Source of the DNA: Omphiscola glabra | Lineage: Eukaryota > Mollusca > Gastropoda > Lymnaeidae | Reading direction: 5' to 3' | NCBI GenBank assembly: GCA_964017045.1 | Contig: OZ024802.1 | Coordinates: forward strand, 27,964,293 to 28,028,292 | Length of the DNA: 64,000 nucleotides | Part shown: in pieces, positions 9,130 to 60,484 of the stretch | Layout of the letters: each line of letters opens with the position of its first letter | Numbering within the stretch: the stretch's first letter is position 1 | Position numbers and translations under genes: made by a program | Notes under the pieces: generated by a model | The model's input: the letters and a program-made list of their open reading frames with translations, nothing else | Told to the model about the DNA's origin: nothing | Database searches by the model: none

Positions 9130-11060
9130 TTAACTGATATCATAGACATATGAAATCATAGACACCTGAACTCATAGACACCTGCACTCATAGACACCTG
9201 AACTATTAGACAACTGAACTCATAGACACCTGCACTCATAGACACCTGAACTATTAGACAACTGAACTCATAGACACCTGAACTCATAGACAACTGAACT
9301 AATACACATCTGAACTCATAGACAACTGAACTCATAGACACCTGCACTCATAGACACCTGAACTATTAGACAACTGAACTCATAGACACCTGCACTCATA
9401 GACACCTGAACTATTAGACAACTGAACTCATAGACACCTGAACTCATAGACAACTGAACTAATACACATCTGAACTCATAGACAACTGAACTCATAGACA
9501 ACTGAACTCATAGACACTTGAAATCATAGAACTTTGAATTCATAGACAACTGAACTCATAGACAACTGAACTCATAGACACCTGAACTCATAGACAACTG
9601 AACTCATAGACACCTGAACTCATAGACAACTGAACTCATAGACAGTTGAACTCATAGACACTTAAACTCATAGACAGTTGAAATCATAGTCAACTAAACT
9701 CAAAGACACTTGAACTCATAGACAACTGAACTCATAGAAATCTGAACTCATAGACAACTGAACTCATAGACAACTGAACTCATAGACACCTGAACTCATA
9801 GACAACTGAACTCATAGACAACTGAACTCATAGACACCTGAACTCATAGACACCTGAACTCATAGAAAACTGAACTCATAGAAACCTGAACTGATAGACA
9901 CATAAACTCATAGACAACTGAACTCATAGAAATCTGAACTCATAGAAAACTGAGCTCATAGACACTGAACTTTAGACACCTGAACTTATAGACAACTGAA
10001 CTCATAGACACCTGAACTCATATACACCTGAACTCATAGACAGTTGAACTCATAGACAGTTGAACTCATAGACACCTGAACTCATAGACAGTTGAACTCA
10101 TAGACACCTGAATTCATAGACAGTTGAACTCATAGACACCTGAACTCATAGACAGTTGAACTCATATCCACTTAAACTCATAAACAGTTGAAATCATAGT
10201 CAACTAAACTCAAAGACACTTGAACTGACAGACAACTGAACTCATAGAAATCTGAACTCATAGACACATGAACTCATAGACAACTGAACTCATAGACAAC
10301 TGAACTCATAGACAAGTGAACTCATAGACATCTGAACTCATAGAAAACTGAACTCATACACCTGAACTCATAGACAACTGAACTCATAGAAACCTGAACT
10401 GATAGACACATGAACTCATAGACAACTGAACTCATACACCTGAACTCATAGACAACTGAACTCATAGACAACTGAACTCATAGACACTTGAACTCATAGA
10501 AAACTTAACTCGTAGACAGTTGAACACATAGACAGTTGAAGTCATAGACAACTGAACTCATAGACAGTTGAACTCATAGATACTTGAACTCATAGACAGT
10601 TGAAGTCATAGACAACTGAACTCATAGACAACTGAACTCATAGAAACCTGAACTCATTGACACCTGAACTCATAGAAACCTGAACTCATAGACAACTGAA
10701 CTCTAGACAACTGAACTCATAGACACCTGAACTCATAGACACATGACCTCATAGACAACTGAACTCATAGTCAACTGAACTCATAGACAACTGAACTCAT
10801 AGACACTTGAACTCATAGACATTTGAACTTATAGACAACTGAATTCATAGACAGTTGAACTCATAGACAACTGAACTCATGGACAACTGAACTCATAGAC
10901 ATTTGAACTCATAGAAACTTGAACTCATAGACAGTTGAGCTCATAAACAGCTTAGCTCATAGACACCTGAACACATGGGCAACTGAAATCATAGAAAACT
11001 GAACTCATAAACACATGAGCTCATAGACAACCGAACTAATTGACAAATGAACGCAAGCAC
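9130..11060. repeat. 16-bp satellite, over 100 units
   Basis: Unit aactcatagacacctg, with variants ending in caactg and cagttg. Unit types are interspersed, and blocks of several units are duplicated; for example the run ending in ctaatacacatctg occurs near 9296 and 9456. It is the longest array in the window, about 1.9 kb, and no coding is supported. Confidence 0.95.
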
Positions 11061-11499
11061 AACTGAAAAAGAAAATCAATGTACTATGTAAATTGCACTG
11101 ACTAAAACAGGAAGAACTAAATGGTATCTTATAGAAGTAGATTTCTAACTTACTCCATATCGAAAGAGCCAAAGCGGTTGGAGCATTTCTTCAGAAGGTA
11201 AAGTAATCTGGTATTGTGTTCCAATACCGAGGGCCTTAAAAATCTCTCATGACCCACAAAAATCGATACTTTTTGTGGAATCTTCGAATCTGTAATTTAA
11301 GGCTGTGATTCTGCACAAAGGAAACTTCTATATATTCCATGAGAATTAGATGATTCTGTCCACGTGATAGAGAAATAGGATAACTTAAAGCAGCCACTGA
11401 ATTCCATTAACTACAACATTTACAGTAGGCAACTCTCTGGTCATTTAAAGGTAGTTGCCTTATTATTGTGACTGAAAAAGGGACATACATAATAAATGT

Positions 11500-25569: not shown

Positions 25570-28500
25570 TTATACAAGCATGTAAGAATTCACGTTGACT
25601 ATAAATATGATGAGCAGGGCGCCAGTGAGCAGGCCCAGAGTATGTAGAAACGCCACAATTTTCGCCTCATTCCCGCCCCTGTGTAGAAGCGTGTCCAGGT
25701 GGTTGCTCATATCCGGAAGCTGCCAGATATAAAATTTGAAAAAAAAAACTTGCAGACCGTATCAGCAATGTAAAATCAATAAACATTGTAAAAAAAATTT
25801 AATCATTGAATTCTAGTGATTTCTGACAACCAAGAATGTATTCATTTGATAATCATAATCAACTGAACACACTTATTATCTACAGATCCACACTTTAGTT
25901 TCCATTTAAGCCATTGACATCTTGTATATGTGATACCCGTTTCTTATACATTATAATTGACGATAATTCTTATATCAGTTGAGCTATAAGCTTTCTCTGT
26001 CCTCACACCTCAACATATCCACAAGTGACACATACAAAAATAGACCACAACTCACCATATCCACAAGTGGCACATACAAAAATAATCCACCACTCACCTT
26101 ATCCACTTGTGACACACACAAAAATTGACCACAACTCACCATATCCACAAGTGACATATAAAAATAGACCACACCTCACCATACCCACAAGTGACACATA
26201 TAAAAATAGACCACAACTCACCATATCCACAAGTGACACATATAAAAATAGACCACAACTCCCCATATCAACAAGGGACACATACAAAAATATTACACAA
26301 CTCACCATACCCACAAGTGGCACAAACAAAAATAGACCACATCTCACCATATCCACAAGTGACACATACAAAAATAAACCACATCTCACCATATCCACAA
26401 GTGACACATACAAAAATAAACCACAACTCACCATATCCACAAGTGGCACATATAAAAATAATCCACCAGCGATGGCAAAGATCCATTTACTGGCCTCGGC
26501 AATATTTGATCCAAGAAACACGCCGATGACGAGGCCAATGTAACAGACACAGGCCGAGAGGAAGTTGATGAGCAGTGATTTCTTGATGGACAGTCCGGAG
26601 TGGAGCAAGATGGCGATGTCCGCTGGTAACGGTGATGGTAAACAATTCATGAAATCAGCAACAAAGTCTCGTGCTAGTGAGTTGGTTTGTATTGTTTAAA
26701 TATTTTTGTGTACTTGCGTGATTTTTTGGTTGTTGTGTTCCGGTGTTGTTGTGTACTTGTTTATTGTTGTGTTTTTGTGTTTTTTTTGGTGTGTTTTTTG
26801 TGCAGTTGTGTTTCTGCATGTGTGTACTTTTGTTTATTTGCGTGTTTCTAGTTAGAGTGTTTGCAACGGGAGGTGCAGCATATTACCCAGTTCATGGGGC
26901 AGCTCCTCGCAAATGATCGCCAGCGATACACTGACCCCGAGGGTCAGGTCCTCCGTGAACGCGGCGCCGATCGACAAGCCGTCCACAAAGTTGTGGATAA
27001 CGTCCCCGGCCATCACCATCCAGGCTAGGGCGACCTTGTCGTGCGTCTGCTCGGACGAGAGGTCAAAGTGAGAGTGGCCGTTCTCCGTTTCGCCGTTCAT
27101 GCGACAGTTCGCCTTGCCCTCGGTCAGGGGCTCCATGCTGTTATCTGCGATGTCTGTGGAGGCTGAACAGTCGGTTTTCTTTTGCTTAGAATAAAAAAAA
27201 TTACGCAATGTCAGATGGTCTACTCATGGCAATCTCGTTGTAATAATCCGGTTAGAACTTTTATGGTTAGAAATGTAACGGTTAGAAATGTAACGGTTAG
27301 AAATGTAACGGTTAGAAAGGTAACAGTAAGAAATGTAATTGCTAGAAATGTAATTGCTAGAAATGCAACCGTTAGAAATGTAATGGTTAGAAATGTAATT
27401 GCTAGAAAAGTAACCATTAGAAATGTAATGGTTAGAAATGTAATGCTAGAAATGTAACCGTTAGAAATGTAATGGTTAGAAATGTAACCGTTAGAAATGT
27501 AACGGTTAGAAATGTAATGGTTAGAAATGTAATGGTTAGAAATGTAATGGTTAGAAATGTAACGGTTAGAAATGTAATGCTTAGAAATGTAACGGTTAGA
27601 AATGTAATGGTTAGAAATCATGACAGTTTTAATATAAAAAATAGAAGCTAGACATGTTTTAACTTGATAATGACGCTGTCAATGTTCTGATTGCATACCA
27701 AAATAGAGAGCGTTGTTATTAGAGCAAGGGATATTTATTATAACAATGTATTGTGTAGCGCAGTGATCGGCAAACTCATTAGTCCAAAGAACCAAAAAAT
27801 GACTTGAGCTTTATGTTTGTTTTAAAGTGAAGAAGAGTGTCTCAATTCGTCAGCCTCACTCTCTCGTCCTTTGCCTATTTGATCAAATGGAAAGACCACT
27901 GGAAACGGACCAGAATGACCAGCAGTGTGTGTGTGTTTCCTTGTGTTCTTTGTGCGATCTACTTTGTCGGAATTTTTATAGTTTCAATGAAATACCGCCT
28001 ACGGGACTCCATCTCCGGGTTTGATTTCAGAGTTTCCCTTCTCTTAGATGAGTTCTCAACTAACGTTGACGAGTCCCATCCACCCGGAGTGCTGGTGATA
28101 TCTTTGCATGTCTCGGCCAACCAGCATCTTTGTTTTGTAATATAGTTTTGTTGACTTACACGAGGCAGCGAGGTGTAAAACAAAAAAAAAATAATATTTT
28201 CTGAGTCATTCACTTAAACTTTTGTATTTAGGAACTCAACGCGTCTTTAAAATAAATTAAAACATCCTACTTACCTTTCTGTTGTACAGGAATGTCTTAA
28301 ACATCCTCTCCAGGCTGAAGAGAGCGTAAATGGATATGATGACCACTGAGGACTTCCATACGTAGACATGACGCATCTCCTCCACGGCCATGATGCCAAA
28401 TGCCTTGAAAGCGTAACAACAGAGAAAGTCATGCAATCATGATTGTCAATGGTTTCACGGAAGCTTACTTTACGGACTTAGGACTTAATCCAAAGGCTGC

Positions 28501-31500
28501 ACCTATCGGTACACGGGTACCAAAATTGAGAGGTTGGGATTAAAAAACGATTTAAAATATTTTTGTTGGGTTCGTAAGACCAAATGAGGTATCAAATGAA
28601 AGATAATTGAATGTACTATACGTTTGTAAACTTAATTCTTCATTTTAACTAAAATAAACTACTACAAATGACATCCCAATAGCATTAGTCAAAATGGACC
28701 CAGACTCGTAGCGCTCCCTTTCGGACCCGGGACACATTAAACTCAATGCTATTCGGATGTCATTTGTGGTAGTTTATTTTAGTTAAACTGAAGAATTAAG
28801 ATTTCAAACGCATAGTACATTCAATTATCTTTCATTTGGTACCTCATTTGGTCTTACAAACCCAACAATAATATTTTAAATCGTTTTTTTTAATCCCAAC
28901 CTCTCAATTCTGGTAGCCGTGTACCAATAGCCACTTCGTAATCCAAATAGGAGTCAGTGTGATCAATACATTGAACGTGGGTCCTCAAAATATAGGATAT
29001 ATATATATATATATTTCATAAACTTATTGTAGGTAACATTAGAGCTTTTTTGTGAGGGATAAAATTAAACACAAGAGGCGTTAACAAGTTGTTAACAGTT
29101 GGGTTAACGTGGGGCAACCACTTTGGCACGGTATAGATTTTAAAACCCGTTATAAAAGTATGTGATTTTTTTCTCTTTCTAAACACATTACCGGCTCCTG
29201 CTAAGGTGCATGAAAGAGTCGATGTTAATTTCAGTAACAGATGTAATTGATCATGAGGCCCCCGAACACTTGCACAGTTAGCCGGGTAAACAGCTTTATA
29301 CAATAGTGGATGTCACCGGCGTAGGAAGAGGGGGTAGTGTGGAGGGGGGGGCGTCAACCACTGGGTGGCACTTATTTTCTTAAATTGCAGGGGCGTCATT
29401 TTAAGGTAACTGCAAAATGCAATTTTTTTTTTCCTTGGAAGGGGGCGGCAAATTCTTGGCCCCGCCCCGGGTGGCACTAACTCTAGCTATGCTACTGGGG
29501 GTATGTACGCTACTGGTGTATGTACGCTACCGGGGGTATATACGCTACTGGGGTATGTACGCTACTGGGGTATGTACGCTACTGGGGTATGTACGCTACT
29601 GGGGTATGTACGCTACTGGGGTATGTACGCTACTGGGGTATGTACGCTACTGGGGTATGTACGCTACTGGTGTATGTACGCTACTGGTGTATTACGCTAC
29701 TGGGGTATGTACGCTACTGGGGTATGTACGCTACTGGTGTATGCACGCTACTGGTGTATGCACGCTACTGGTGTATGCACGCTACTGGTGTATGCACGCT
29801 ACTGGTGTATGTATAAACCTTAAGCAACAAAACTGTATTCAAAATACTAATGAGAATGGAATCAAGTTCACAAAAGCTTTCAAATGTAGGTACAATTGTT
29901 CTAAAAATGATACTCGTTTACTTAAAAAGTAAGAGCCCACCTCAAGTATAAGCATTAACAACGACCCACTTCATGTATTAGCATTAACAACATCCCACCT
30001 CAGGTAATATCTCCAACAAACAAAAAAGATCTCATTATTAGCACTAACAAAAACCCATCTCATGTAGTAGTGCTAACAACAACCCATCTCATGTATTAGC
30101 ACTAACAAAAACCCATCTCATGTAGTAGTGCTAACAACAACCCATCTCATGTATTAGCGCTAACAACAACCGACCTCAGGTATCAGCACCAGTAAACTTG
30201 TTGACGCCAGAGATCCCGCCCCTATAGCCACCAGGAACTGCAGCAGCCGCTTGAAGAAGGTTTTATCCATGATGGGCCCCAGGAAGACGCCGATGTTAGA
30301 AATGAGGATGATGAGTGACACGAAGCCGATGCCGCAGCCCCATGCTGAAAACACCAACACCATGATGATATTGAATGCATTGGCAATCGTCTTTTTTTAA
30401 GAGTCAATATGATATTGTAAAAATAAAATACGAAAATACTTTGTATTCCTATTACAACCAATGCGTGGATATTTAACGTTTTTCGATGGTAGGTCCAAGG
30501 CAACTAACCTTCCGCTTTGGATGGTCTCTTTTTCCCGCTGGCGTGGTAGGTCTCCTCGTTGGCGCCCCTTGTGCAGTTCTCGGATGTTATCGTGTTCAAG
30601 GCCAGCGGAAGTGCGTCCACGAGACCGTCGGCAGCGAGAAGGCCGTCAGGGGCCAAGCTGGTGAAAATCTCGCTGACGCCGGGGCACTAGTTGCACAAAG
30701 AAGGAGAGAGTTATCTTTCTTAATCCAATGACAAAAAAAATTTCAACGGATCAGACTCGAATCGATCGAAGATGTGCTCATGGCAGACAGACGCCAGCTG
30801 TCTGAAAGCCTCGCTGCGCTAACCTCAGTGGATCGGGTCTATCTACATCGACATATAAAAACTGCATTCTTAGCGAAATGTCTTTTTTATTACATTTAAT
30901 CTTTTGTTACTTAATTGGTTTTTCTTGTTTAAACGTGGTAGGAATTAAAAAGTCATTTGACTCAGATATCATGGTCACTGTTGAGGTCTTGAGTGCGAAT
31001 TTGAGTTCAAGTATATAGATGCACACACACAACTATTTAAGAACATTACAAATGAAAATGTTTTACATAAAACGGCCGGGGCAGAGGACATTTATGACAC
31101 CAAGAAAGACGAAATTGTACTAGTTCACGACAGCATACAACAGCAAGATTACAGGACTATTACAGCATACCACAGCAAGATTAGAATACTAGTAATCTAA
31201 GAAGATAGTTGAAGCTGAAAAATGTCGAGAATGCATTTTCTTAAGCAAGAGAACGGTGCCGTGATTAGACCACGGTACCACGCTCCATTTGCGCACTTTA
31301 AACCCTCTTAAATTAATCATGAAAGCCGGTGATGTCACATAAGCTTGTCATGCTTCCCCTGAAAAATTGTTTGAAGAAAAATACTGTTCAAAAGTGATAA
31401 TATATCTTACCCTCTTCATTACAGATTATTATTATTATTATTCGTTTTCGTACCTGAAGAGGACGAATGAATTTTTTTTTAAATTGTTGCTATTTTTGTA

Positions 31501-32061
31501 ATCGCTGCGGTGTAAGGGAAACCAAAGTGTTAAAAAATGCATTGGGCTGGGTCAACATCTAAACTATAAACTCAACATCTATACTGTTCACTCTACATCT
31601 GTATTGTTAACTAAACATCCACACTGTTAACTAAACATCTATACCGTTAACTCAACATTATGCTGTTAACATCTATACTATTAACTAAACATATATTTAA
31701 TTATCATAGACCACTAGAGAAAGATTACAACGCAAGCTCGCACATGTAAATATCAAACATACGTGTGGACATTCACCTCGTTTTTCCACGTGCAGTTCTT
31801 GTCCGGTCGCTGGCACGCCCCCAACAGATTCTCGAGGAACTCGTGCGAGTGTGTGGTGATGGACTCCAAGAGTTTGAGGAACTGGCCCGGCGTCATCCCG
31901 AGGGCGTCGTACGCATCAGGGCCGCCATGTGAGAACCGTCGTATTAGTAATTCTGCGGCGGTGTTGACAGAGTTTGTATCTTGTATGGTTTGAGACCTCG
32001 CCGGCAGAGCACAAGTTGCGATTAGCAACATTATGAGGGAAAATCTGGGAAGCTTCTGCAT
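25570..32061 (-). CDS. SLC39 (ZIP8/ZIP14-type) divalent metal transporter, 7 coding exons
   Basis: Coding exons on - are 32061-31777, 30686-30509, 30344-30175, 28403-28275, 27184-26887, 26622-26432 and 25719-25570. They total 1401 bases (466 aa), with matching phases and GT-AG introns. Residues 1-23 are a signal peptide (MQKLPRFSLIMLLIATCALP). An extracellular domain with two NCT glycosylation sites follows, then eight predicted membrane segments. TM2 ends in LIPEAFG. TM4 carries HNFVDG (318-323) and TM5 EELPHE (347-352). Glu in place of the first His of the LIV-1 HEXPHE motif is the hallmark of ZIP8 and ZIP14, which import Zn, Mn, Fe and Cd across plasma or endosomal membranes. Residue 354 is Ala, where Gly is usual in HELGD. 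His-rich loop residues (GHSHF, 290-294) precede TM4. Length is typical of the family. Introns after exons 3 and 6 begin with arrays that copy the exon end. Family certain; ZIP8/14 orthology probable. Confidence 0.93.
26005..26461 (-). repeat. 42-bp array of duplicated exon end plus 5' splice site (SLC39 intron 6)
   Basis: Read on -, the last 30 bases of coding exon 6 encode LFLYVPLVDM and are followed by the donor gtgagt. This block plus about 12 intron bases is repeated about 11 times toward lower coordinates. Units translate as LFLYVSLVDM plus V-S/R-C-G. Nine units keep a GTGAG donor; the fifth (ggggag) and the last (gttgag) have lost it. Units 1-7 are in frame without a stop, and a 2-base deletion in the eighth shifts the frame. 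The first donor, after 26432, gives the normal ZIP junction (VDM then LPDM in exon 7), so it is the expected site. Confidence 0.92.
27235..27620. repeat. 15-bp tandem array in SLC39 intron 4
   Basis: Unit gttagaaatgtaacg, about 25 copies, ending about 50 bases from the acceptor of exon 5 (attctaag before 27184). Five-codon frames are artefacts. Confidence 0.9.
27766..28150. other. Possible hAT terminus and unexplained open frame in intron 4
   Basis: The start cagtgatcggcaaactcatt resembles a hAT end, but no matching right end was found. A + frame at 27837-28145 (102 codons) has no recognised domain and lies antisense in an intron. I do not call it a gene. Confidence 0.3.
28476..28955. repeat. 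About 480-bp foldback (two arms of about 210 bp)
   Basis: The left arm, from about 28476 to 28694, and the right arm, about 28728-28955, are reverse complements at roughly 90 percent. Paired landmarks are gagaggttgggatt with aatcccaacctctc, gaccaaatgaggta with tacctcatttggtc, and aagataattgaatgtac with its inverse. The loop is only about 30-70 bases and holds a GC-rich piece (gcgctccctttcggacccgg). A transcript of this intron (between exons 3 and 4) would form a long hairpin. No frame is present; it is a foldback MITE of unknown family. Confidence 0.85.
29311..29485. mobile_element. MITE fragment of the ggcgtagctag family
   Basis: The left end caccggcgtaggaag and right end ctagctatgctactg form a degraded inverted pair like cagtggcgtagctag. 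The body contains ggggcgtcaaccactgggtg and ggtggcact, a pattern common to these elements. Its right end passes directly into the 17-bp array. Confidence 0.5.
29480..29815. repeat. 17-bp tandem array, about 19 units, nucleated at a MITE end
   Basis: Unit gctactggggtatgtac. The first unit is the terminus of the adjoining MITE (tatgctactggggg) plus its flank gtatgtac, so the array copies a junction. The right half changes to ggtgtatgcac variants. It lies in SLC39 intron 3, and all frames are artefacts. Confidence 0.9.
29932..30190 (-). repeat. 29-bp array copying the SLC39 exon 3 end and donor
   Basis: On -, exon 3 ends gctgatacctgag followed by the donor gtcggttgtt. Eight further copies of about 29 bases follow in the intron, of the form gctaatacatgagatgggtt plus gttgtta. 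Most have lost the donor GT (gagatggg), but three keep a GT at the corresponding place (gaggtggg twice, gaagtggg once). The exon itself ends at 30175. Confidence 0.85.
31120..31190. repeat. Isolated copies of the gacagcataccacagcaag unit
   Basis: About two copies of the 37-bp unit that forms the array at 33097-33340, here in SLC39 intron 1 and diverged (actagttcacgacagcatac). Confidence 0.6.
31545..31700. repeat. 20-bp tandem array, about seven units, SLC39 intron 1
   Basis: Unit aacatctatactgttaactc, diverged copies. It ends about 80 bases before the exon 1 donor. Confidence 0.8.
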
Positions 32062-49827: not shown

Positions 49828-52800
49828 TCACATGTAAGTTGGCAAGAAGTCATATCCCGCAGCCTGATGTTCTTTGTTTGGAAGTTGGTCCTGAAACCCA
49901 AGCCTGGCATCCGCTTGCCCTTGCCTGGAACATTCACCATCTTTTTGGCTATGGATTCCCTTCTCGTCTTCCCCTTCCCCCATATCCGGACCGTAATCCT
50001 GCACCGGGTCCCCGCACATGGCCAGCACGTCGGACAGCAGCTCCCGGAGGATCGGGTTGTCCAGGACCGCCGAGTACTTGAAGATCTTGAACCCCGAGAC
50101 GAGCAGGTCCGTGGCCTGCTGGTGGACGGTGCGCAGGTCCGTCAGGCACTGTATGATGCCGGCCAGCGCCAGGTGCGGCTCGGAGAGTCGCTGCGAGAGG
50201 AGGTGCTCCAGGCATTCCACGAGCTGGGATTGGACGGCTGCCGGGATGGGCGTGGTGACGGTGACGCCGTCACGATCTGAGGACACACGACACGGGTTGT
50301 TATTTGTTAAATATTTGGAGGATTAAACCATATCACTCACAACTTAAAGGACAAACCTATGTTGTTGACTGCCATGTTTTGTGTTTTTTTTTAAAATAAA
50401 TATTTGTATTAGTAGACAAGAACAAACACAAACAATAGATTTTAATTTTTATTTATCTGTGTTATTAGCTATCTGTCAAATTCATTATTTTTGAAAATTC
50501 CGAATTTTGGAAAAAAATATTTTTTCCATAACTTTAAAAAAAAAAAAATAATAATAAACACCAATCACAATTTTTTCTAGTATATTTTCAGAAATCTTTT
50601 TTTCCCCACCGGTATCTTGATTAGAACACAACTTCTGTAAAGAGATTTAATTGTAATTGTATGGAGAATGTCTTGGACATTATTTATTTTCTATCTGAAT
50701 CTGAAATGATAAGACGAAGTAATGGGCTCAAATGTTGAAAGCATTTTTTTAGAATTCATTCAGTTTGGGGAGTTGGGGAGGGGGGGGGGGGGGGGGGGAA
50801 TTCATGTCAAGTGATTGCTTATAAAACACAATTTAATCATGAGAGTATTAAAAATAAAAGAGAGATAACCCTGATTGAATATGAGCGATATATATTTTCA
50901 AAGGAGTTGCTGGACTTTGGAATGATTTCTGTTTTTTTTTTTTTTTAGAACTGCTTATTTATAAATTTATTTTTAATAATAAAATGTAAAAAATAAGAGA
51001 CAACAAAGTTTCCTTACATATTTTTTATTAGTTCTAATTTCGCCAGACCACACTCTAGCTTATTTGTTCTACTTTCGCTAGAGTTCACCCTAGTTCTACT
51101 TTCGCTAGAGTACACCCTCGTTCTATTTTCCCTAGACGACACCCTAGTTCTGCTTTCGCTAGACGACGACCCAGTTCTACTCTCGCTAGACGACACCTAC
51201 TTCTACTTTCACTAGACGACACCCTAGTTCTACTTTCGCTAGAGTACACCCTCGTTCTATTTTCCCTAGACGACACCCTAGTTCTGCTTTCGCTAGACGA
51301 CGACCCAGTTCTACTCTCGCTAGACGACACCCTAGTTCTACTTTCGCGAGGTGACACCCTAGTTTTCAAAACTTCTCTTCTAGATCGTCAACTTCTGGGC
51401 CCAGACTGGGAAAAGATCTAAAGACGCTAGACACCAACTCGCCTGTGGTGAAGACCAACAAAGCCTTGACGACAGCCAGCTCCTCGTCCGTCAGCCCCAG
51501 CTTCTGCACCCTGCGGCACATCTGCGTGTACGACCAGAACAGGTCGTGGTTGACAAACTGACCAAACTCCTTGTGGCAGAAGTGGTTGCCCCCGGCCCAC
51601 ATGCCCACCTTGAGGTCGGCGTTGAACAGGGGCGTGCTGTTCAAAATGTTCACTTCTGGACGGGCACCTTGACGCAAGGTGAAAATAACAATGATAATAA
51701 TCATTTATAACTTTTTGAAGTATAGAGAAAAATAAATCACATTCTAAAGTCAAAGAATCCGTTTCTTTGGTGAGAAAATCAATTTCTATGAAAAAATTAA
51801 GTTTCTAAGGGAGAAATATCAAATTTCTATGAAGAAAATCAATTTCTTAGGGCACAAATCGGTCTCTATGAACAAAATCAATGGCTAAGGGCACTAATCA
51901 GTTTCCATGAACAAAATCAATTTCTAAGGGCACTAATCAGTTTCTATGAACAAAATCAATTTCTAAGGGAACTAATCAGTTTCTATGAACAAAATCAATT
52001 TCTAAGGGCACTAATCAGTTTCTATTAACAAAATCAATTTCTAAGGGAATTTTTTTTAAATAGTATTATTTGATCATTGTAATACTTTTTTTATAAGTAA
52101 CATCTTTACAGTGTATGTAGTAAGTGTAAGTAGTTAAGACTATTTTTGAAAGTAGTTAATACTAATTCAATAATGTGTAACAAATGATGGGTACAAATTA
52201 TTAGTGCACGAGGCTGGACAATTACAAAAAGTCTAGAACACGAACAACAAAAGCATATAGCTTATAGCAACACAACATCACGCGGTTACAACCGATGATC
52301 ACGTGGTTCTGGTCACGTGGTTCTGTTCTCACTTTTAATTAGGTCAGCCTGTGTGGGGAGGTCCAGCAACGTGAAGCCGGGAATCTTTTTAGAGAACTTG
52401 ATCAGGGCGTAGGCGAGGAGCTCACAGTTGACCTCCCAGTTCTTTAACAGCACCTGGTGATTGGCATATTAGACAAATTGGAGGACAATGTATGCAAATT
52501 GAATGACAATGTATGCAAATTGAATGACAATGTATGCAAATTGGATGACAATGTATGTAAACTGGATGACAATGTATGTAAATTGGATGGCACTGTATGT
52601 AAATTGGATGGCACTGTATGTAAATTGGATGGCACTGTATGTAAATTGGATGGTACTGTATGTAAATTGGATGACAATGTATGTAAATTGGATGACACTG
52701 TATGTAAATTGGATGACAATGTATGTAAATTGGATGTCAATGTATGTAAATTGGATGACAATGTATGTAAATTGGATGTCAATGTATGTAAATTGGATGT

Positions 52801-54188
52801 CAATGTATGTAAATTGGATGGCAATGTATGTAAATTGAATGACAATGTATGCAAATTGGATGACAATGTATGCAAATTGAATGACAATGTATGCAAATTG
52901 GAGGACAATGTATGCAAATTGGATGACAATGTATGTAAACTGGATGACAATGTATGCAAATTGGATGGCACTGTATGTAAATTGGATGGCACTGTATGTA
53001 AATTGGATGGTACTGTATGTAAATTGGATGACAATGTATGTAAATTGGATGACACTGTATGTAAATTGGATGACAATGTATGTAAATTGGATGTCAATGT
53101 ATGTAAATTGGATGACAATGTATGTAAATTGGATGTCAATGTATGTAAATTGGATGTCAATGTATGTAAATTGGATGTAAATGTTTGTAAATTGGATGTC
53201 AATGTATGTAAATTTGATGTCAATGTATGTAAATTTGATGTCAATGTATGTAAATTGGATGACAATGTAAATTGGATGTCAATGTATGTAAATTGGATGT
53301 CAATGTATGTAAATTGGATGGCAATGTATGTAAATTGGATGACTATATATGTACTGACAATTAAAATTGTACATATATCATACGAATTTGTCTGTTTCCT
53401 TTGATTTATCCACATTCTTCCCATTATCCATTATGCATCAACATTTCTTTCTTCACGCTTTCCGGAAATATTCATTTCTCTTTCTCCCGTTTTCGGCATC
53501 CCATTCACTCTATTTTTACTTTTATTTCATATCCAATCCCCATGTCTTACCCTTCCCCATTAACTGCATGCGTACAGGAAAATGTATGTTGCTATCCCGT
53601 TACTCATATCAATCAAAGTCTGGCATTATCCATCTGTTCTAAAAAAAAAACCAATCAAGCTCTTTTACCTTCCGGTTATCCACATCCATACCGGTTGTCA
53701 TCCAGATCTCATCATAGTCCTTCTCGGGTAGAAAGAACATCCGACCGAATATCCGTATCCTGTCCTCACACTGCTCCTAAAAAATTACAGCAATAAGACA
53801 TAGCATGTTGTAACATCGTGGTTGCTTCATTAACTGGGGTTATTTTTTTTATTATCTCCAACATTTATTTTAGTTGTTCGATTTATATATCTACTCCATA
53901 AATTAGCGTATAACATTCTTAGACAGGGGTATGATTCTTTGCACGCCAAGTCCGTTACATAAAGATTATATCACTCCCCTATCTTATCTTGATGGCGGAA
54001 ATCTATTAATAGAACATCCGGGCGTACAGTCTGGCCAATCGCATTAGGATACGAATGAGACATCCGGGTATTCCGTTTGGCCTATCTCTCAACGGCAGCT
54101 CGGTGCTTCTGAGTTATTCTGAGACGTAACGTAGACACAAGCGTGTTTACAACTTTATTTTACGCAATATTTTACAAACAAGTTGTTA

Positions 54189-54224
<36 letters not shown>

Positions 54225-57200
54225 GAAATACATTGTTAGAAGCTATGTTTTACGGAAATGTTGCCTAGAAATAGTAACATTACGTAATGGGATGTGACAA
54301 TTTCCGGTCTTAGAAATGACAAACCCTATTTTGCTATAGTCGTATTAGTTCTCTTAATCATCAATTAGTTTTTTTAATTACTCAGTGTAAATTTTCATAG
54401 ATGTTTGCTGGCGCAATTTACATACCAGCTGAAACTTAGTTGAATATATACAATTTGGGACTTTAAAACTGTAAAAAAAAAAAGACACACACAAGAAACA
54501 CGAGTTTGACTTAGTCGAAGGATAAAGTTATAAGGCAAGTGTAAGACGATATTGTCACTTACCCGTAATATCTCATTAGGAAATGGCGTCAGCGGGCCGT
54601 CGAGCTCGCGCTCCTTATGCCCTCCCCGGCGCCCACTCACACCTGCCACACGCCGGGTTTCCCCGACGTCGGGCCGTGCGGGGGAACGCCAGAGACCTCC
54701 CAGGGCGTGGACCATCCCCACCAGCAACCGCTCGATCGGGTTTTCCGCCGGAGACCCTCCCCGCCCGGAGACATCTGGTCGACCGAAGACGCTGCGTTTA
54801 AAGCGTCCGCAGTCCACTTTCCTAGGGACCGGGACGGTAAATACACGTCCTAATATCTCCCCCCACCCGTCCCGGGGAAGCATCGGACGCCCTCTAAGAG
54901 GGATTCTACAGTGGGTTTCCACCTCGCAACTAATTCGCGAAGTAGCTGGGACGAAACGGTTGCCTAGGAGCAGCTTTCTCACGGCTGCATTACTTATCCG
55001 TAATTGACTGGTTTCTTTCATCAAATTTTTTTAGCGCGTTCGTGCGTCGTTATGACACTGGATGGAACACAAAGTGTTTTACATTCGCAATGTCAATTTT
55101 AACCCAGAAAACATTATTTAACAGGCTTTACGATTAATCAAACACATGCACAGCGCAGCTGGCTTTAATATGGGAGAAAATAATGCACAACCATCCACTA
55201 CTCGGTTCTCACAGCCATTGCTGAAACAAACCTGCATGTGCATCAAAGACACTACGGCATAATTACAATAAATACACCAACTGAAATGCGGGAAGAGCGT
55301 TGATTAGATGCTAACCCTCGAATCACAACGCGCACACTAATATATTATATTTGGTGAGCAACAATTAGTAGTGAGCGCACATACAGGCAGTGCCGTCTTA
55401 AGGCATGGGCCCAGTGGGCACTGGCCCAGGGCCCCGCGCTTGTAGGGGGCCCCACGTTTCTAAGAGACTCCCTTTTGATAGAGACATCATGCTTTACATA
55501 TTTATAATGAATATTGAAAGATTTTGATAATTTAAATGGATTTAAAATTTTAATCCACGATATATATCAGCACATTCCAAAAATAATATTAAAAAATGCT
55601 AATCAAAGTTGGACAATTTTAAAACTTTTAAAGGGGAATAACTCTAGTCGACAAGTTTTTGTATTAATCGAAGTTTAAATTAATTGAAAGTTTTATTTTT
55701 ATTTTACATTTTTATTTATCTTGGTGAGTTGGTGGGTAGCAGGAACTGTTTGCCCCCCCCCCCCCACCTCACTGTTTGAGCATGGGGCGAGCACCCCCTT
55801 TCGCCCCCTTCTCGCGGTCCAGGTGTGTTGTGTTGCTAGGGGGCCCCAGTGTATAGCTGTGCCCAGGGCCTACTATGTTGTTAAGACGGCACTGCATACA
55901 CGACAGATACCATTAGGCCATACAACAACACGATAATCACTGCTATGAGCAAAGAGGGTGAATCAATTTGGTTGGAATAGTCGACCGCTTCTCCACCGGT
56001 TAGAATATAGTGATACATGTGAACTTGTAAGTGTCATAGAAGCGTTCACCATCATACTTGATCTTTAAAAATGACAGAATACGACTGCAGAAAATATGGT
56101 ATATTCTGTGCACCCCAAGAGTATATTAACGTGGAAATCACTTTTTGTGATGGTTAATACTCTACCCTTCAGTATAGCGGTTACCCATTACAAACATGAT
56201 AAGAATTACTTCATTAATGATTGCTTTTTGTCGCTTTATAAATTTACTGAAAATTCGAACATTTTCAAAGGTATAAAAAAAAGCGTATATAATGTATACC
56301 CTATTTCAGACATTCCAAGCACAATCTCGGAGTATTTTCCACATGCATTACGGCTCTCCTTGTCCAACCCTCTTAAACAGTGTCGGACAAGGGCCCTCGG
56401 GGGGCTCCTAGGCATTGAAATTGTGTCTCTCCTCAGTTGTGTAAAGCCTCGAAGAGTGTACGTGGGCGGCCGCCCCCGGGTGGCAATTTGAAATCTTTAA
56501 CATTATTGGTGGCGTACCTTGACAAAATTCTGGAAAAGTCGAACTAGCCCCCCCACCCCTCCCCACCCCACCCCACGAAAACAACAACAAAACACTTATT
56601 ATTTACATAATATATAAATATAAAAATAGACCAAAAAATATAAAAAGATAAATAAATATATATATATATAATTGATTTATATATATAAATCTCTACGTAT
56701 AAATCTCAGTAACTTACTGCATGCTGCCTTTGTTGCTCCTGGATGTCTTCGTGACGTTTGACAGATCTGAACAGAGAACTGAAGCACTGCTTGTGGCAGT
56801 CAGAGAGTTGCTGGATGACCTCCCTTTTATTAGCGTAAATCTCTTTCACGATTCGCTCCCCTTCGTGCTCAACCACGGCGGGTCTCTTGTCACTTTCGCT
56901 TTCGTTTTCTTTCCGGCGTGTAAACAAAAGTGGAACATCTTGTGGGGAATTGTTCAAGGGAAGGAGCCGCGAAAATTCATTTTGGGAGCTGGGTGAGGAG
57001 TGATGGTTCTTGCCCGGAACATTTTGAATATTTGGGTAGGCCGATGATGATAAAAGGGCCGAGGGTGACACCACATTCAGGGCGTGGAATGATGGCGGAG
57101 ACTGGCTTGAATGAGGGGTCGTGTCAGATGGGGTATTGTGGGCCTCTCTTCTGTGTGTGGGGAAAAAGGGGGTATTAGGTAGAAATTAAATAATTTAAGG

Positions 57201-60200
57201 CAAAAAAAGACATGGGGTATTTACGTTAACCGTAAAAAGTAGGATGTTTAAGTGAGATGGTTGATTGAAAGACGGATTGGGAGGAAGGATGATGTGAGCT
57301 AAAGAGAAAAATGAAATGGAAGGAGGGAAAGAGCAAGAGAGGGAACACAGATTTGGGGAAAGAGAGAGTTAGGAGGCTGTTGTTGTAACATGAATACAAA
57401 AAAAAAACAAAAAAAAAACACAGAAGTAATGGAATGGTTAATAATAAAATGTTTTTTTTTTTTTTTTTTTGAGTGGTGGGTCAGACAAAGTAAAAATTAT
57501 AAGGTTTCAAATACACCCCTTGTATACAGATAAAAAGAAATGTTATGGTATAATAAAATCAGATCTGAAAATAGCTGTGCAATTTTATAGATGTGTTTGC
57601 TTGATCTTTTGTATCATATCAAATATATTTCAAAGGCTTTGTTTTTTTTCCGGTAAAGTTCATTTACGTGCCTACAAACCTCATAGTTTTATCCAGATCA
57701 CTTTCCATTTGAGTAAATCCGTTAAGAAGATTTGTGTTAAATTTCCCGATGTCTGGGCCCTGCACATCTCCTTGTTCTGAAAAACACATGGCCTCTTCCG
57801 ACACATCCCGATCCTGCGATGCAGCCGTGCAAAAATTGTGTACTAAATCAATGGGCTGATCGCACGACGGCGACCACTGCCCCAGCCAATCGGAATTTGC
57901 CGAGGTGCTCGCCACGCTTCCCGTGGGGGTCTCCAGGCTGGGGCTCATGACCAGGGCGTCGCTGGAGCACGGGGACAGAAAGACGCTGGCACTGGCGGGC
58001 GATGAGGTTTTACGCGGGGAATGGTCTTTCCACAGGGCGGAAAACCTGGGCATTTCCTGGGGGGAGGCCATCGGGGAGGACATGGTCTCCATCCAGGGCG
58101 ACAGGGAGGCAGGCGTGAGCTCCCCGTTCCCATGCTGCGACGCCGTTGCAGATTTCAACGGCGGGGGGAAATAATCCGAGGACAAGTTCGATCGCGTGAG
58201 ATCATCTGAATAGGAATCCACAGTTTCCGTCAACTCCGAGCTGCCGCCGTCATAGGACTTCTTGACCGGAAACTGACCGCTACACTGAAGTGACCTGTGC
58301 AGTTCTTTCACTTCCAAAATATCCTTCGTCTTTTTGTAGCTCGTGTAACGTCCAGTTTTGATGGCTGTGAATTTAAATAAAAGGTAAGAGACTATTAAAT
58401 GTGATCATTTGTTCAGTTAACGATTTTCTTCCAAAAAAAGCAATAAAATATAATTGTGTCCTTTAAAAAAAAACAAAAACAAAACTTTGTCTAACCACCT
58501 GTGAATAAAAGGTTGAAATTGTTGATTATTTTAATCTAATAAAACACGGTTCTTCAATGTACATACATGTGTTGTTTTTTTTAAAATTCCTATTTAAATT
58601 GCATTGTTATGACGTCATACTTCAGTCAGATAATATATACGCATCTGCTATTTAAACTGCCTCACCAAATTTGCTAATGTTTTATTGTTATTATTATTAT
58701 TTAATCTGTTGCAACAAAAAGCAAAATCCTAGCGCAACTCGTTTCAACCGTACACTCCACTAACAATAAATAGTCATTCTTTCCAGAGCAGACTTTAAAG
58801 ATTTAGTTTGGAACGTAGGCATTTAGAGATATATTAATTTTTTTTTTAAAAACTTCATTGGGGGGTTATCGATATCAAACTGCTTAAGTGTTAAATTTTC
58901 TTTAAGCATATTTTTTCCCCGCCTGCATTCTCCCATCTTCCCAAACATACAGCAACCCATAAACCTTAAATGTTATCTCAAGAAATTCGATGAAATATTT
59001 CCATTTTTTTAAAAATATAACAGACGACGCATTATTTTTTTTTGGCCGGGGCGCAAATCATGTCATACTCTACGAATGATTCCTTAAATGCCGTACCTGT
59101 TTTCGACATGCCGACCTGAAGACATTTTTTGTATCGGCACAGCTGGCAACTTCTCTGTTTTTTCGTTTTTCTAACCTCACAGTTGCCGTTACCTGGACAT
59201 TTGTACGTGTGGTTCAGCTTTAGGCTGCGATGGAAGAAACCCTGTGGAGAAAGTTCCGACCAAAAACAAAAGTTATTATTTATGCATTTTTATTAACCTT
59301 CAATTTGGTAAAATTATACCAACGGAGCAGAGAGCACCAACTAATTTTGAACCACAATACGATGGCGTGGAAACTGTACTCTCAGAAACGAATGCTAAGA
59401 ATCCACAGGACCCCATTATTTTATTGTCTCAAGACGTCGCAATAGATTTCAGAATTCTCAGCTAAGTCAAGAGAAACAAAAGTTCTTGTCTTCTTCTATA
59501 TTTTGAGGGCCCACGATCAATGGATTCATCATTCTGGCTCCTTTGTAAGTCAAAATCCCCCCACCCCCCAAAAAAGAAATCTATATGATCACATAGACAC
59601 AAAAGAATGAGGGAGGGCGATAAACAATCTTTTAGCGTTACTGGTTTGTCTGTTTGTTGTTCAGGCCGACGTTCGTTACAATCCACTGACTCTTGGGTCG
59701 CGCAGTACAAATAAAAAAACACGCGGTTCTTGCTTAAGGAATATGGATTTAGCCAGATTTGCGAGAGTCGAGAGAACAGGTCTGCTAAATTTTAAACAAA
59801 ACTTAATGCACCTATTATGTGGTTAGAGTGGGCAATGCTGCATAGTGCCATCGGGGGATACTATAAGGTGCTAGCGGACAACGCTACGTAGAGCCAGTGA
59901 GCAATGCTACCTAGTGCTAGGCGACAGAGCTGCGTCATCCCAGCGGCCAATGCTGTACTAAGCTACTGGGCAGTGCTACTCTGTACCAGCGAACAACGCT
60001 ACTTAGCATCAGGGAGCAGTGCTGCATGATGATACGGGATTTCCTTTCTTAAATCTATAGCCCATTTAAAATCAAATCTTTATGCTCGAGTAACGGCTTA
60101 TTTTTGGAGATAGTGAACAAAACGATTTCTTATTCTATTTCTTTTACAGTTTTCCTTCTCGTGTTCGTTGTTGGTTGGCACCGCGGTGTCGACGCCACCA

Positions 60201-60484
60201 CCACCCCATCCCACCCACCTCCGTATATGATCTCACACTCTGGTCTGGGCAGCTTCGTTTGGGAAGCACTGAATGACGCGTCGTCTTTTCTAATGACACA
60301 GCACATCTCACGAGCCATGCCGTAACGGCGGCACAGCCGATGTTTTTACCTATCTTACCTTGCATGCTTCACAGGTGTTGACGCCATAGTGGAAGCCCGC
60401 CCCTTCGTCGCTGCACACCCTGCACGGGGGCAGAACGTGTTGCTTGGACTCGAGCATTTCGTTGACACTGGCGGAACAGTTCAT
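49828..60484 (-). CDS. NR1-type nuclear receptor, 8 coding exons, 763 aa
   Basis: Exons on - are 60484-60359, 59241-59097, 58364-57680, 57150-56718, 53776-53669, 52453-52333, 51667-51443 and 50276-49828 (2292 bases, phases consistent). The DNA-binding domain is at residues 21-82. Finger 1 cysteines are 21, 24, 38 and 41, with P-box CEACKG. Finger 2 cysteines are 57, 63, 74 and 77, then RYKKCLQVGMS. A Ser/Pro-rich hinge of over 300 residues follows. The ligand-binding domain spans about 450-697, with signature LIKFSKKIPGFTLLDLPTQ, then LTDEELAVVKALLVFTTDRD, and AF-2 helix NPILRELLSDVL (688-699). A 65-residue polar tail ends the protein. It should be a nuclear ligand-regulated or constitutive transcription factor; the intact AF-2 argues for activation ability. 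DBD context and LBD signature resemble NR1 receptors (Rev-erb/E75/PPAR side), but I cannot name an ortholog. An ATG four bases after an acceptor (ccaagcag|GAACCATG) suggests a further 5' exon. Confidence 0.93.
50290..51040 (-). other. Last nuclear receptor intron, left part
   Basis: AT-rich intron sequence with a G-run at about 50778-50799. No array or element is recognised before the 27-bp repeats. Confidence 0.6.
51045..51365. repeat. 27-bp array near the GC donor of the last receptor intron
   Basis: Unit gttctactttcgctagagta plus caccctc, about 12 copies, with a five-unit block repeated at about 134-base spacing (51091 and 51225). On - the unit reads ggtgtcgtctagcgaaagta. The intron start just upstream reads gttggtgtctagcgtcttta, so the unit may derive from it. 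Confidence 0.9.
51437..51443 (-). promoter_or_regulatory. Non-canonical GC 5' splice site in the receptor LBD
   Basis: On -, exon 7 ends ACCACAG and the intron begins gcgagt. Using this GC donor joins G to ATCGTGAC of exon 8 and gives VFTTDRDGV, the expected helix 8-9 joint (compare DRPGL in other NR1 receptors) in the correct phase. The nearby GT (ttg|gtgtct) would give the wrong phase and add residues. GC-AG introns are a known minor class. Confidence 0.8.
51765..52050. repeat. 39-bp tandem array in receptor intron 6
   Basis: Unit tctaagggcactaatcagtt plus tctatgaacaaaatcaatt, about seven copies, roughly 100 bases upstream (on -) of the acceptor of exon 7. Confidence 0.9.
52475..53350. repeat. 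21-bp array with 420-bp higher-order repeat in receptor intron 5
   Basis: Unit ttggatgacaatgtatgtaa plus a, about 42 copies. Variant order (gag, ggc, gtc, gac) repeats with a period of 420 bases, 20 units: gaggacaatg occurs at 52481 and 52901. The array ends about 20 bases from the acceptor of exon 6 (ccaatcaccag before 52453). Long frames on both strands (over 300 codons) are artefacts of the 21-base period. Confidence 0.95.
53780..54560 (-). other. Receptor intron 4, left part
   Basis: Contains a (TA)n run at 54190-54222 and two short related segments (atccgggcgtacagtctggc, atccgggtattccgtttggc) near 54018 and 54063. Otherwise nothing is recognised. Confidence 0.5.
54563..55021 (-). CDS. 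Possible alternative first exon of the nuclear receptor (CpG-rich)
   Basis: On -, an ATG at 55021 opens 153 codons that end at a strong donor, ATATTACGG|gtaagt, in phase 0. The next exon (53776) begins in phase 0, so joining them is in frame and would give a novel N-terminus fused to the LBD without the DNA-binding domain. An in-frame TAA lies four codons upstream of the ATG, as expected for a first exon. The segment is much richer in G, C and CpG than its surroundings, as in promoter islands. The protein (MKETSQLRISNAAVRKLLLG at the start) has no domain I know. The opposite strand is also open over the same stretch, a common effect of high GC. Coding status and use are inference. Confidence 0.45.
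55388..55894. mobile_element. hAT-type non-autonomous element in receptor intron 4
   Basis: Ends cagtgccgtcttaagg and ttaagacggcactg are inverted. Flanking 8-mers catacagg and catacacg agree at seven of eight positions. The interior holds gggcccagtgggcactggcc and gtgcccagggcct, typical of these elements. Length is 507 bases and no transposase frame is kept. Confidence 0.85.
55900..56715 (-). other. Rest of receptor intron 4
   Basis: Begins just downstream (on -) of exon 4. A + frame at 56096-56491 has no recognised domain. A C-rich stretch lies at 56547-56577 and a (TA)n region near 56655-56690. Confidence 0.5.
57155..57675 (-). other. Receptor intron 3
   Basis: Purine-rich on + (57240-57380), with A and T homopolymers at 57399-57420 and 57451-57470. 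No other feature is seen. Confidence 0.5.
58370..59090 (-). other. Receptor intron 2
   Basis: AT-rich intron, no repeat or element recognised. Confidence 0.5.
59825..60030. repeat. Degenerate array of about 30 bp in receptor intron 1
   Basis: The motif gagcaatgctacctagtgct with variants recurs six to seven times between 59830 and 60030. Confidence 0.7.

Follow-up and report, generated by a model that had tools for sequence, protein, structure and literature searches.

Exon 6 of an SLC39 gene in the pond snail Omphiscola glabra ends within the first unit of a 42-bp minisatellite, and most later units carry a copy of its 5' splice site. The question raised by this locus is whether the copied donors work as an array that lengthens the transporter in steps, or whether they are passive products of a repeat born at an exon end. 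The window analysed here is the whole stretch of 64,000 nucleotides (27,964,293-28,028,292 of a 37-Mb contig) in a 745-Mb assembly of 37 contigs. Comparison of the sequences favours, with a probability of roughly 0.85, neutral minisatellite birth at the exon 6 end, in which the first donor would be used and the rest would be removed as intron.

The host gene

The gene lies at 25.5-32.1 kb on the minus strand and, by its sequence, is a member of the SLC39/ZIP transporters. Its seven coding exons (Table 1) join into 1398 nt, or 466 codons, which is the length of the Lymnaea stagnalis protein P0001. Across its full extent, the translation of exons 2-7 (371 aa) shares 94% identity with P0001, which fits a lymnaeid host close to Lymnaea stagnalis, and among the best 120 of 479 matches it is aligned with proteins of Physella, Biomphalaria and other snails that their sources name ZIP14-like. 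The SLC39 translation contains the Pfam Zip domain (PF02535, E=1.1e-53), together with HNFVDG and EELPHEL, which we take to be SLC39/ZIP motifs.

The SLC39 gene adjoins a ROR-like nuclear-receptor gene, also on the minus strand (window 49831-60460, about 49.8-60.5 kb), whose intron 7 has an apparent GC donor (CAG/GCGAGT, at 51443). In Bulinus, Biomphalaria and Physella, homologues of both genes are assigned to contigs of equal length, which suggests old synteny. No Pfam match was found for 20 long open reading frames of the window.

Table 1. Window coordinates of the SLC39 coding exons, the two exon-end arrays of the gene and the donor copies of exon 6. A slash marks the exon boundary; on this strand the position of each donor is its higher coordinate.
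Feature	Position	Strand	Detail	Basis
Coding exon 1	31777..32061	-		
Coding exon 2	30509..30686	-		
Coding exon 3	30175..30344	-		
Coding exon 4	28275..28403	-		
Coding exon 5	26887..27184	-	...EELPHEL at end	
Coding exon 6, SLC39/ZIP14-like	26432..26622	-	...LFLYVPLVDM at end	homologues
Coding exon 7	25573..25719	-	LPDMSNHLD...SYMLV; phase 0 to exon 6	
42-bp minisatellite, 11 units	26004..26460	-	unit 1 = last 30 nt of exon 6 + donor, gtgagttgtggt	TRF, unit table, junction test
Second exon-end array, 29-bp units	29936..30189	-	seeded by exon 3 end, GTGCTGATACCTGAG/GTCGGTTGTTGTTA	TRF, unit match, junction test
Authentic donor 1	26426..26431	-	gtgagt	U1 duplex -9.2 kcal/mol
Donor copy 2	26384..26389	-	gtgaga, in frame	unit table
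Donor copy 3	26342..26347	-	gtgaga, in frame	unit table
Donor copy 4	26300..26305	-	gtgagt, in frame	unit table
Donor copy 5	26258..26263	-	gggagt, dead	unit table
Donor copy 6	26216..26221	-	gtgagt, in frame	unit table
Donor copy 7	26174..26179	-	gtgagg, in frame	unit table
Donor copy 8	26134..26139	-	gtgagt, out of frame (2-nt deletion in unit)	unit table
Donor copy 9	26092..26097	-	AAG/gtgagt; U1 -11.8; predicted product a premature stop	unit table
Donor copy 10	26050..26055	-	gtgagt, out of frame	unit table
Donor copy 11	26008..26013	-	ttgagg, dead	unit table

Anatomy of the exon-end arrays

A sequence-only reading of this DNA had described the end of exon 6 and its donor as the first of about 11 units of 42 bp, nine of them with GTGAG. 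TRF, applied to the window, returns an array of period 42 with 10.9 copies and 87% matches; the unit table and the junction test agree with it, and the description is correct. When the 42 nt across the exon end are compared with the downstream intron the score is 79, a value reached by none of 200 first-order Markov resamplings. Successive donors are 42 nt apart, except for one spacing of 40 nt. GTGAG is kept in 9 of the 11 units (8 of the 10 downstream ones), GT being replaced in unit 5 (GGGAG) and unit 11 (TTGAG).

The reading frame is open across units 1-7; a loss of 2 nt in unit 8 then shifts it, and reading on from there meets the first stop at 26101. Exon 6 itself (26622-26432) joins exon 7 (starting at 25719) in phase 0. 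Eight downstream donors are intact: five (2, 3, 4, 6 and 7) are in frame with exon 7 and would give candidate inserts of 14, 28, 42, 70 and 84 residues, and three (8, 9 and 10) are out of frame. The earlier proposal that donors 2 to 7 are all in frame, with inserts from 14 to 84 residues, thus keeps its open frame but loses one step; unit 5 has no GT, so that in-frame inserts are possible only from the five donors named, and an insert of 56 residues drops out. Predicted pairing with the 5' end sequence of U1 is -9.2 kcal/mol for donors 1, 4, 6, 8 and 10, from -8.1 to -8.6 kcal/mol for donors 2, 3 and 7, and best for donor 9.

The same gene has a second array at the end of exon 3, in which eight 29-bp units are recognised, four with GT and four that have lost it. 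Among 12 introns tested in the window (six of the SLC39 gene, six of the nuclear-receptor gene), TRF arrays cross the donor in two and the acceptor in none; both crossed donors belong to the SLC39 gene, and the nuclear-receptor gene has none in six. The exon 7 acceptor is weakly similar to intron 6 (score 26, against 22 for the highest of 100 shuffles; one in 200 resamplings reached the observed value), a candidate that was rejected, there being no TRF array behind it; the similarity probably reflects a shared GGATATG.

Minisatellites are abundant in the sampled sequence. TRF arrays make up 28.6% of the window, 34% of 148 kb nearby and 14.6% of the flanks of the kinase exons described below. 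One array of the window has 121 copies of 16 bp (9132-11067). In the nuclear-receptor gene, a 42-copy array of 21-bp units (52475-53353) stops about 21 nt before the acceptor of the exon at 52453.

Direction of growth and proposed origin

Protein comparison indicates which came first, the exon end or the repeat. VDM or ADM runs on continuously, without an insert, in 24 aligned homologues (24 of the 120 matches listed) from snails, bivalves, an octopus, a brachiopod and a termite; in the Lymnaea stagnalis model P0001, VDM is joined directly to LPDM. This continuity implies that the end of exon 6 is old, the exon being the source and the array the derivative. An origin of the minisatellite from the exon end plus its donor is supported by this comparison.

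In the proposed series of events, the minisatellite would have been born when 42 bp of sequence, covering the 3' end of exon 6 together with its donor, were duplicated in tandem. It would have grown and shrunk by slippage or unequal exchange, as may be supposed for many minisatellites of this snail genome. The extra copies would be tolerated because they fall on the intron side: the spliceosome would take the first, exon-proximal donor, and the remainder would be spliced out as intron. The other GTGAG motifs would be passive decoys carried along from the copied exon end, those of units 5 and 11 having presumably decayed. Gene conversion between two tandem SLC39 paralogues with different unit numbers would also have homogenised exon 6.

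Paralogues and the conversion of exon 6

A DNA search of the genome finds two SLC39 relatives, at distances of 122 and 140 kb. In paralogue B (closest to P0003) the 42-bp array recurs with four units, the last of which reads TT at the donor, as does the last unit of the window gene (A). In local alignments, A and B agree at 186 of 191 sites of exon 6 (B exon 6 region G000:C10:27868289-27868604, locus L002), compared with 71-79% identity for exons 2, 3, 4, 5 and 7. All five differences in exon 6 fall on third positions (5 of 63 codons); in exons 2, 3, 4 and 7, 38-57% of third positions differ. The exon 6 alignment starts 5 nt before the exon and stops within the array. This pattern is probably the result of a gene conversion that took in exon 6 and some or all of the array, after which the unit number changed. 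Paralogue C (closest to P0010) does not have the 42-bp array, and its exon 6 is 74% identical. In Lymnaea stagnalis, the residues encoded by this exon are likewise shared by P0001 and P0003.

Paralogue B has further arrays of this kind. Downstream of its exon 5 (EELPHEL) lies a 48-bp array of 39.4 copies by TRF (G000:C10:27869551-27871433, in L004); pattern matching recovers the exon end 39 times, counting that of the exon itself, and seven of these copies keep CTAG/GT. The end of B exon 4 and its donor are duplicated once (24 bp, 2 copies), and a 20-bp array begins at the donor of B exon 3. Over the three SLC39 genes, arrays touch 6 of the 17 donors placed, two of these being linked by the probable conversion, and none of the acceptors placed; the donor count was partly judged by eye, with B and C taken from TRF coordinates.

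Recurrence at other exon ends

The wider frequency of such duplications was surveyed in unlinked kinase exons. Sixty were hand-picked, with about 400 nt on each side, from 143 protein-kinase matches; the criteria were absence of an internal stop, an open frame (up to 332 aa) and E values (down to 3.6e-11), and a few rows of this kind were passed over. The junction test compares 40 nt over each exon end with the flank, against 300 resamplings, and was also run on the coding 25 nt alone. Exon sides whose array begins outside the exon are excluded from the counts, and nine matches from a PF00083 profile search (L023-L031) lie outside them.

Clear cases occur at 2 of 58 donor sides and 2 of 52 acceptor sides. 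On 40 nt, two donor sides (L053 and L063) exceed all resamplings; on the coding 25 nt, L053 only. L053 has about 10 copies of a 23-bp unit, ATGTCTCCT/GTAAGTC, and L063 about 8 copies of a 17-bp unit, CATACACA/GTAAGTT. At both loci most copies of the exon end and donor have GTAAGT. Three of 52 acceptor sides (L045, L073 and L082) are above the resamplings on 40 nt, whereas on the coding 25 nt L045 and L073 exceed them clearly and L048 and L053 barely. On inspection, L073 consists of tandem 69-bp units over the acceptor and L045 of a single duplication of acceptor plus exon start, while the L082 array is confined to the intron. The mid-exon control exceeds in 1 of 56 kinase exons, and barely. 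Under a looser rule, six exon ends and the same number of exon starts were flagged; most of these were inspected, and their arrays often start a few nucleotides outside the exon. At L064, a 20-bp repeat of 2.7 copies lies over the end of the hit and was not detected by the junction test.

By these sequence counts, exon-end duplication would occur at a rate of a few per cent per exon side, at exon starts and exon ends alike. The exon boundaries counted as affected in the genome are those of SLC39 A exons 3 and 6, SLC39 B exons 4, 5 and 6, the donor sides of L053 and L063 and the acceptor sides of L045 and L073. SLC39 donors are more often affected than kinase donors (6 of 17, partly judged by eye, vs 2 of 58), a difference that weighs against the favoured reading.

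Are the downstream donors used?

Leaky splicing is the rival explanation that survives best. The downstream donors, donor 9 above all, would be used at a low level, giving premature stops and a slightly lower output, either as a cost or in a dosage role. Five in-frame donors of similar strength and a donor 9 that pairs better with U1 than the authentic donor (-11.8 vs -9.2 kcal/mol) mean that some leaky use would be expected, and donors 8-10 shift the frame. The sequence, however, has no sign of regulation, and two reports describe amphioxus exon-boundary repeats (mirages, discussed below) as not disturbing splicing (PMC3087553, PMC3902484). This explanation is on the unlikely side.

A functional array would make a stronger demand: donors 2, 3, 4, 6 and 7 would be used appreciably, adding 14 to 84 hydrophobic residues to the ZIP protein, and length would tune the transporter. 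Five intact in-frame downstream donors, the stop-free units 1-7, and the equality of donors 4 and 6 with donor 1 in U1 pairing speak for it. So does a lean towards synonymous change in units 2-11 if all copies enter the count: 12 substitutions are synonymous (6.7 expected), 19 are non-synonymous (22.5 expected) and 0 create a stop (1.75 expected), with P=0.018. When each distinct change is counted once, however, the figures are 7, 15 and 0 against 4.3, 16.2 and 1.4 (P=0.12), and coding selection in these units is not convincing. Constraint specific to the donors was not found either: positions +1 to +6 have 6 mismatches in 66, compared with 36 in 462 across the whole unit, and the donor hexamer is equalled or surpassed in conservation by 33 of 42 circular six-column windows. 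Selection on the donors was dropped as an explanation, the donor columns varying as much as the rest of the unit.

Protein structure and the other arrays also argue against longer isoforms. AlphaFold2, run on P0001 with a 32-sequence alignment, gives a model (mean pLDDT 81.9, about 90 around the junction) in which the exon 6/7 junction falls at residues 417/418, inside a continuous predicted helix (395-431). An insert would therefore interrupt helix 7, and the model speaks against a useful longer isoform, as do the 24 aligned homologues without an insert. The seven exon-end unit lengths compared are 42, 29, 20, 24, 48, 23 and 17 bp; three of seven are multiples of 3, about what chance gives, and in-frame unit length was rejected as a selected feature. 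Units of 29, 20, 23 and 17 bp in other exon-end arrays of the genome shift the frame, and the strongest decoy of exon 6, donor 9, would lead to a premature stop. The functional array is very improbable. As for the earlier suggestion of a length-variable splice-donor array for longer transporters, a difference in unit number is observed between two paralogues (11 vs 4, in one assembly), whereas the working as a splice-donor array is not supported by the donor columns, the P of 0.12, the homologues, the helix or the frame-shifting units.

A third explanation is that splice donors themselves provoke minisatellite birth. Three SLC39 genes with six donors touched and no placed acceptor (B and C judged by eye) suggest a donor-directed mechanism. 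The kinase sample does not show it, the two sides being alike in the 40-nt test (2 of 58 donor vs 3 of 52 acceptor sides), and arrays already occupy 15-34% of the sampled sequence; donor-directed mutation is given little credence. It would be similarly far-fetched to see here a living length-variable donor bank, in which alleles or tissues would make ZIP with 14 to 84 additional residues in helix 7 and conversion would shuttle the bank between paralogues. An assembly artefact is hardly credible: tandem arrays misassemble easily, but the units differ, the array is just 457 bp long in a 745-Mb, 37-contig assembly, and the paralogue 122 kb away has a four-unit copy with different flanks.

Comparison with known systems

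Neutral birth of a mirage-like exon-end minisatellite, in a snail genome rich in minisatellites, is the most likely account of the exon 6 array on the sequence comparisons. The sequence-only reading knew of no described equivalent; this was mistaken, as amphioxus mirages, human exon-intron boundary minisatellites and human IFI6 have all been published.

Amphioxus mirages (Adh3, TnC and the globins Gb6 and Gb9, with PGBD5 likened to them) are described as minisatellite-like duplications of exon-intron boundaries, in which many copies keep splice signals, length is unstable and splicing is apparently normal (PMC3087553, PMC3902484). Both they and the snail array consist of tandem exon-intron boundary units with splice signals kept in many copies, and in both genomes 5' and 3' boundaries in several genes are affected. 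The Adh3 units of 10-72 bp (quoted in PMC3087553) overlap the 42-bp unit of the snail. The hosts differ, a cephalochordate and a gastropod; the taxon is treated here as incidental, and the snail array is not itself an amphioxus mirage. The evidence also differs: RNA suggests normal splicing and haplotypes differ in length in amphioxus (PMC3087553), whereas the snail array is known from the sequence of one assembly.

The human IFI6 (6-16) minisatellite provides multiple splice donors (Turri, Cuin and Porter; Turri et al. 1995, as cited in PMC4526556); splicing at two of its downstream units is reported to yield three mRNA species (PMC4526556). Like the snail array, it is an exon-end minisatellite with donors as repeat units. 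Two of its downstream donors are thereby used, whereas in the snail transporter inserted residues would break up a predicted transmembrane helix. Minisatellites at exon-intron boundaries also alter the structure of human genes in segmental duplications (PMC2812944). Those units are about 30 bp, and unit number differs between paralogues there as in the snail; however, the human cases were chosen for variable repeats and checked against RNA (PMC2812944), while the snail array was read from sequence.

The Rogers model proposes intron gain by tandem duplication of exon segments bearing AG/GT (as cited in PMC3087553 and PMC2812944). A segment with a splice signal is tandemly duplicated in the snail too, but an existing intron is lengthened and no new intron arises. 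Among molluscs, an abalone kinase gene carries an intronic 27-bp minisatellite whose length varies (PMC6905558). No mollusc exon-end array was found in the literature at the level of titles and the beginnings of abstracts, which is no proof of absence.

Significance

The snail arrays widen the range of exon-end minisatellites beyond chordates to include a pond snail, and the hand-picked sample of unlinked kinase exons suggests that they are common there. That two paralogues share an array but differ in its size (11 and 4 units) points to turnover in the number of units. A genome in which many exon ends precede near-identical decoy donors would let two questions be tested in a natural setting: how the spliceosome selects one of several equal 5' splice sites, and whether arrays of this sort give rise to new introns or isoforms.
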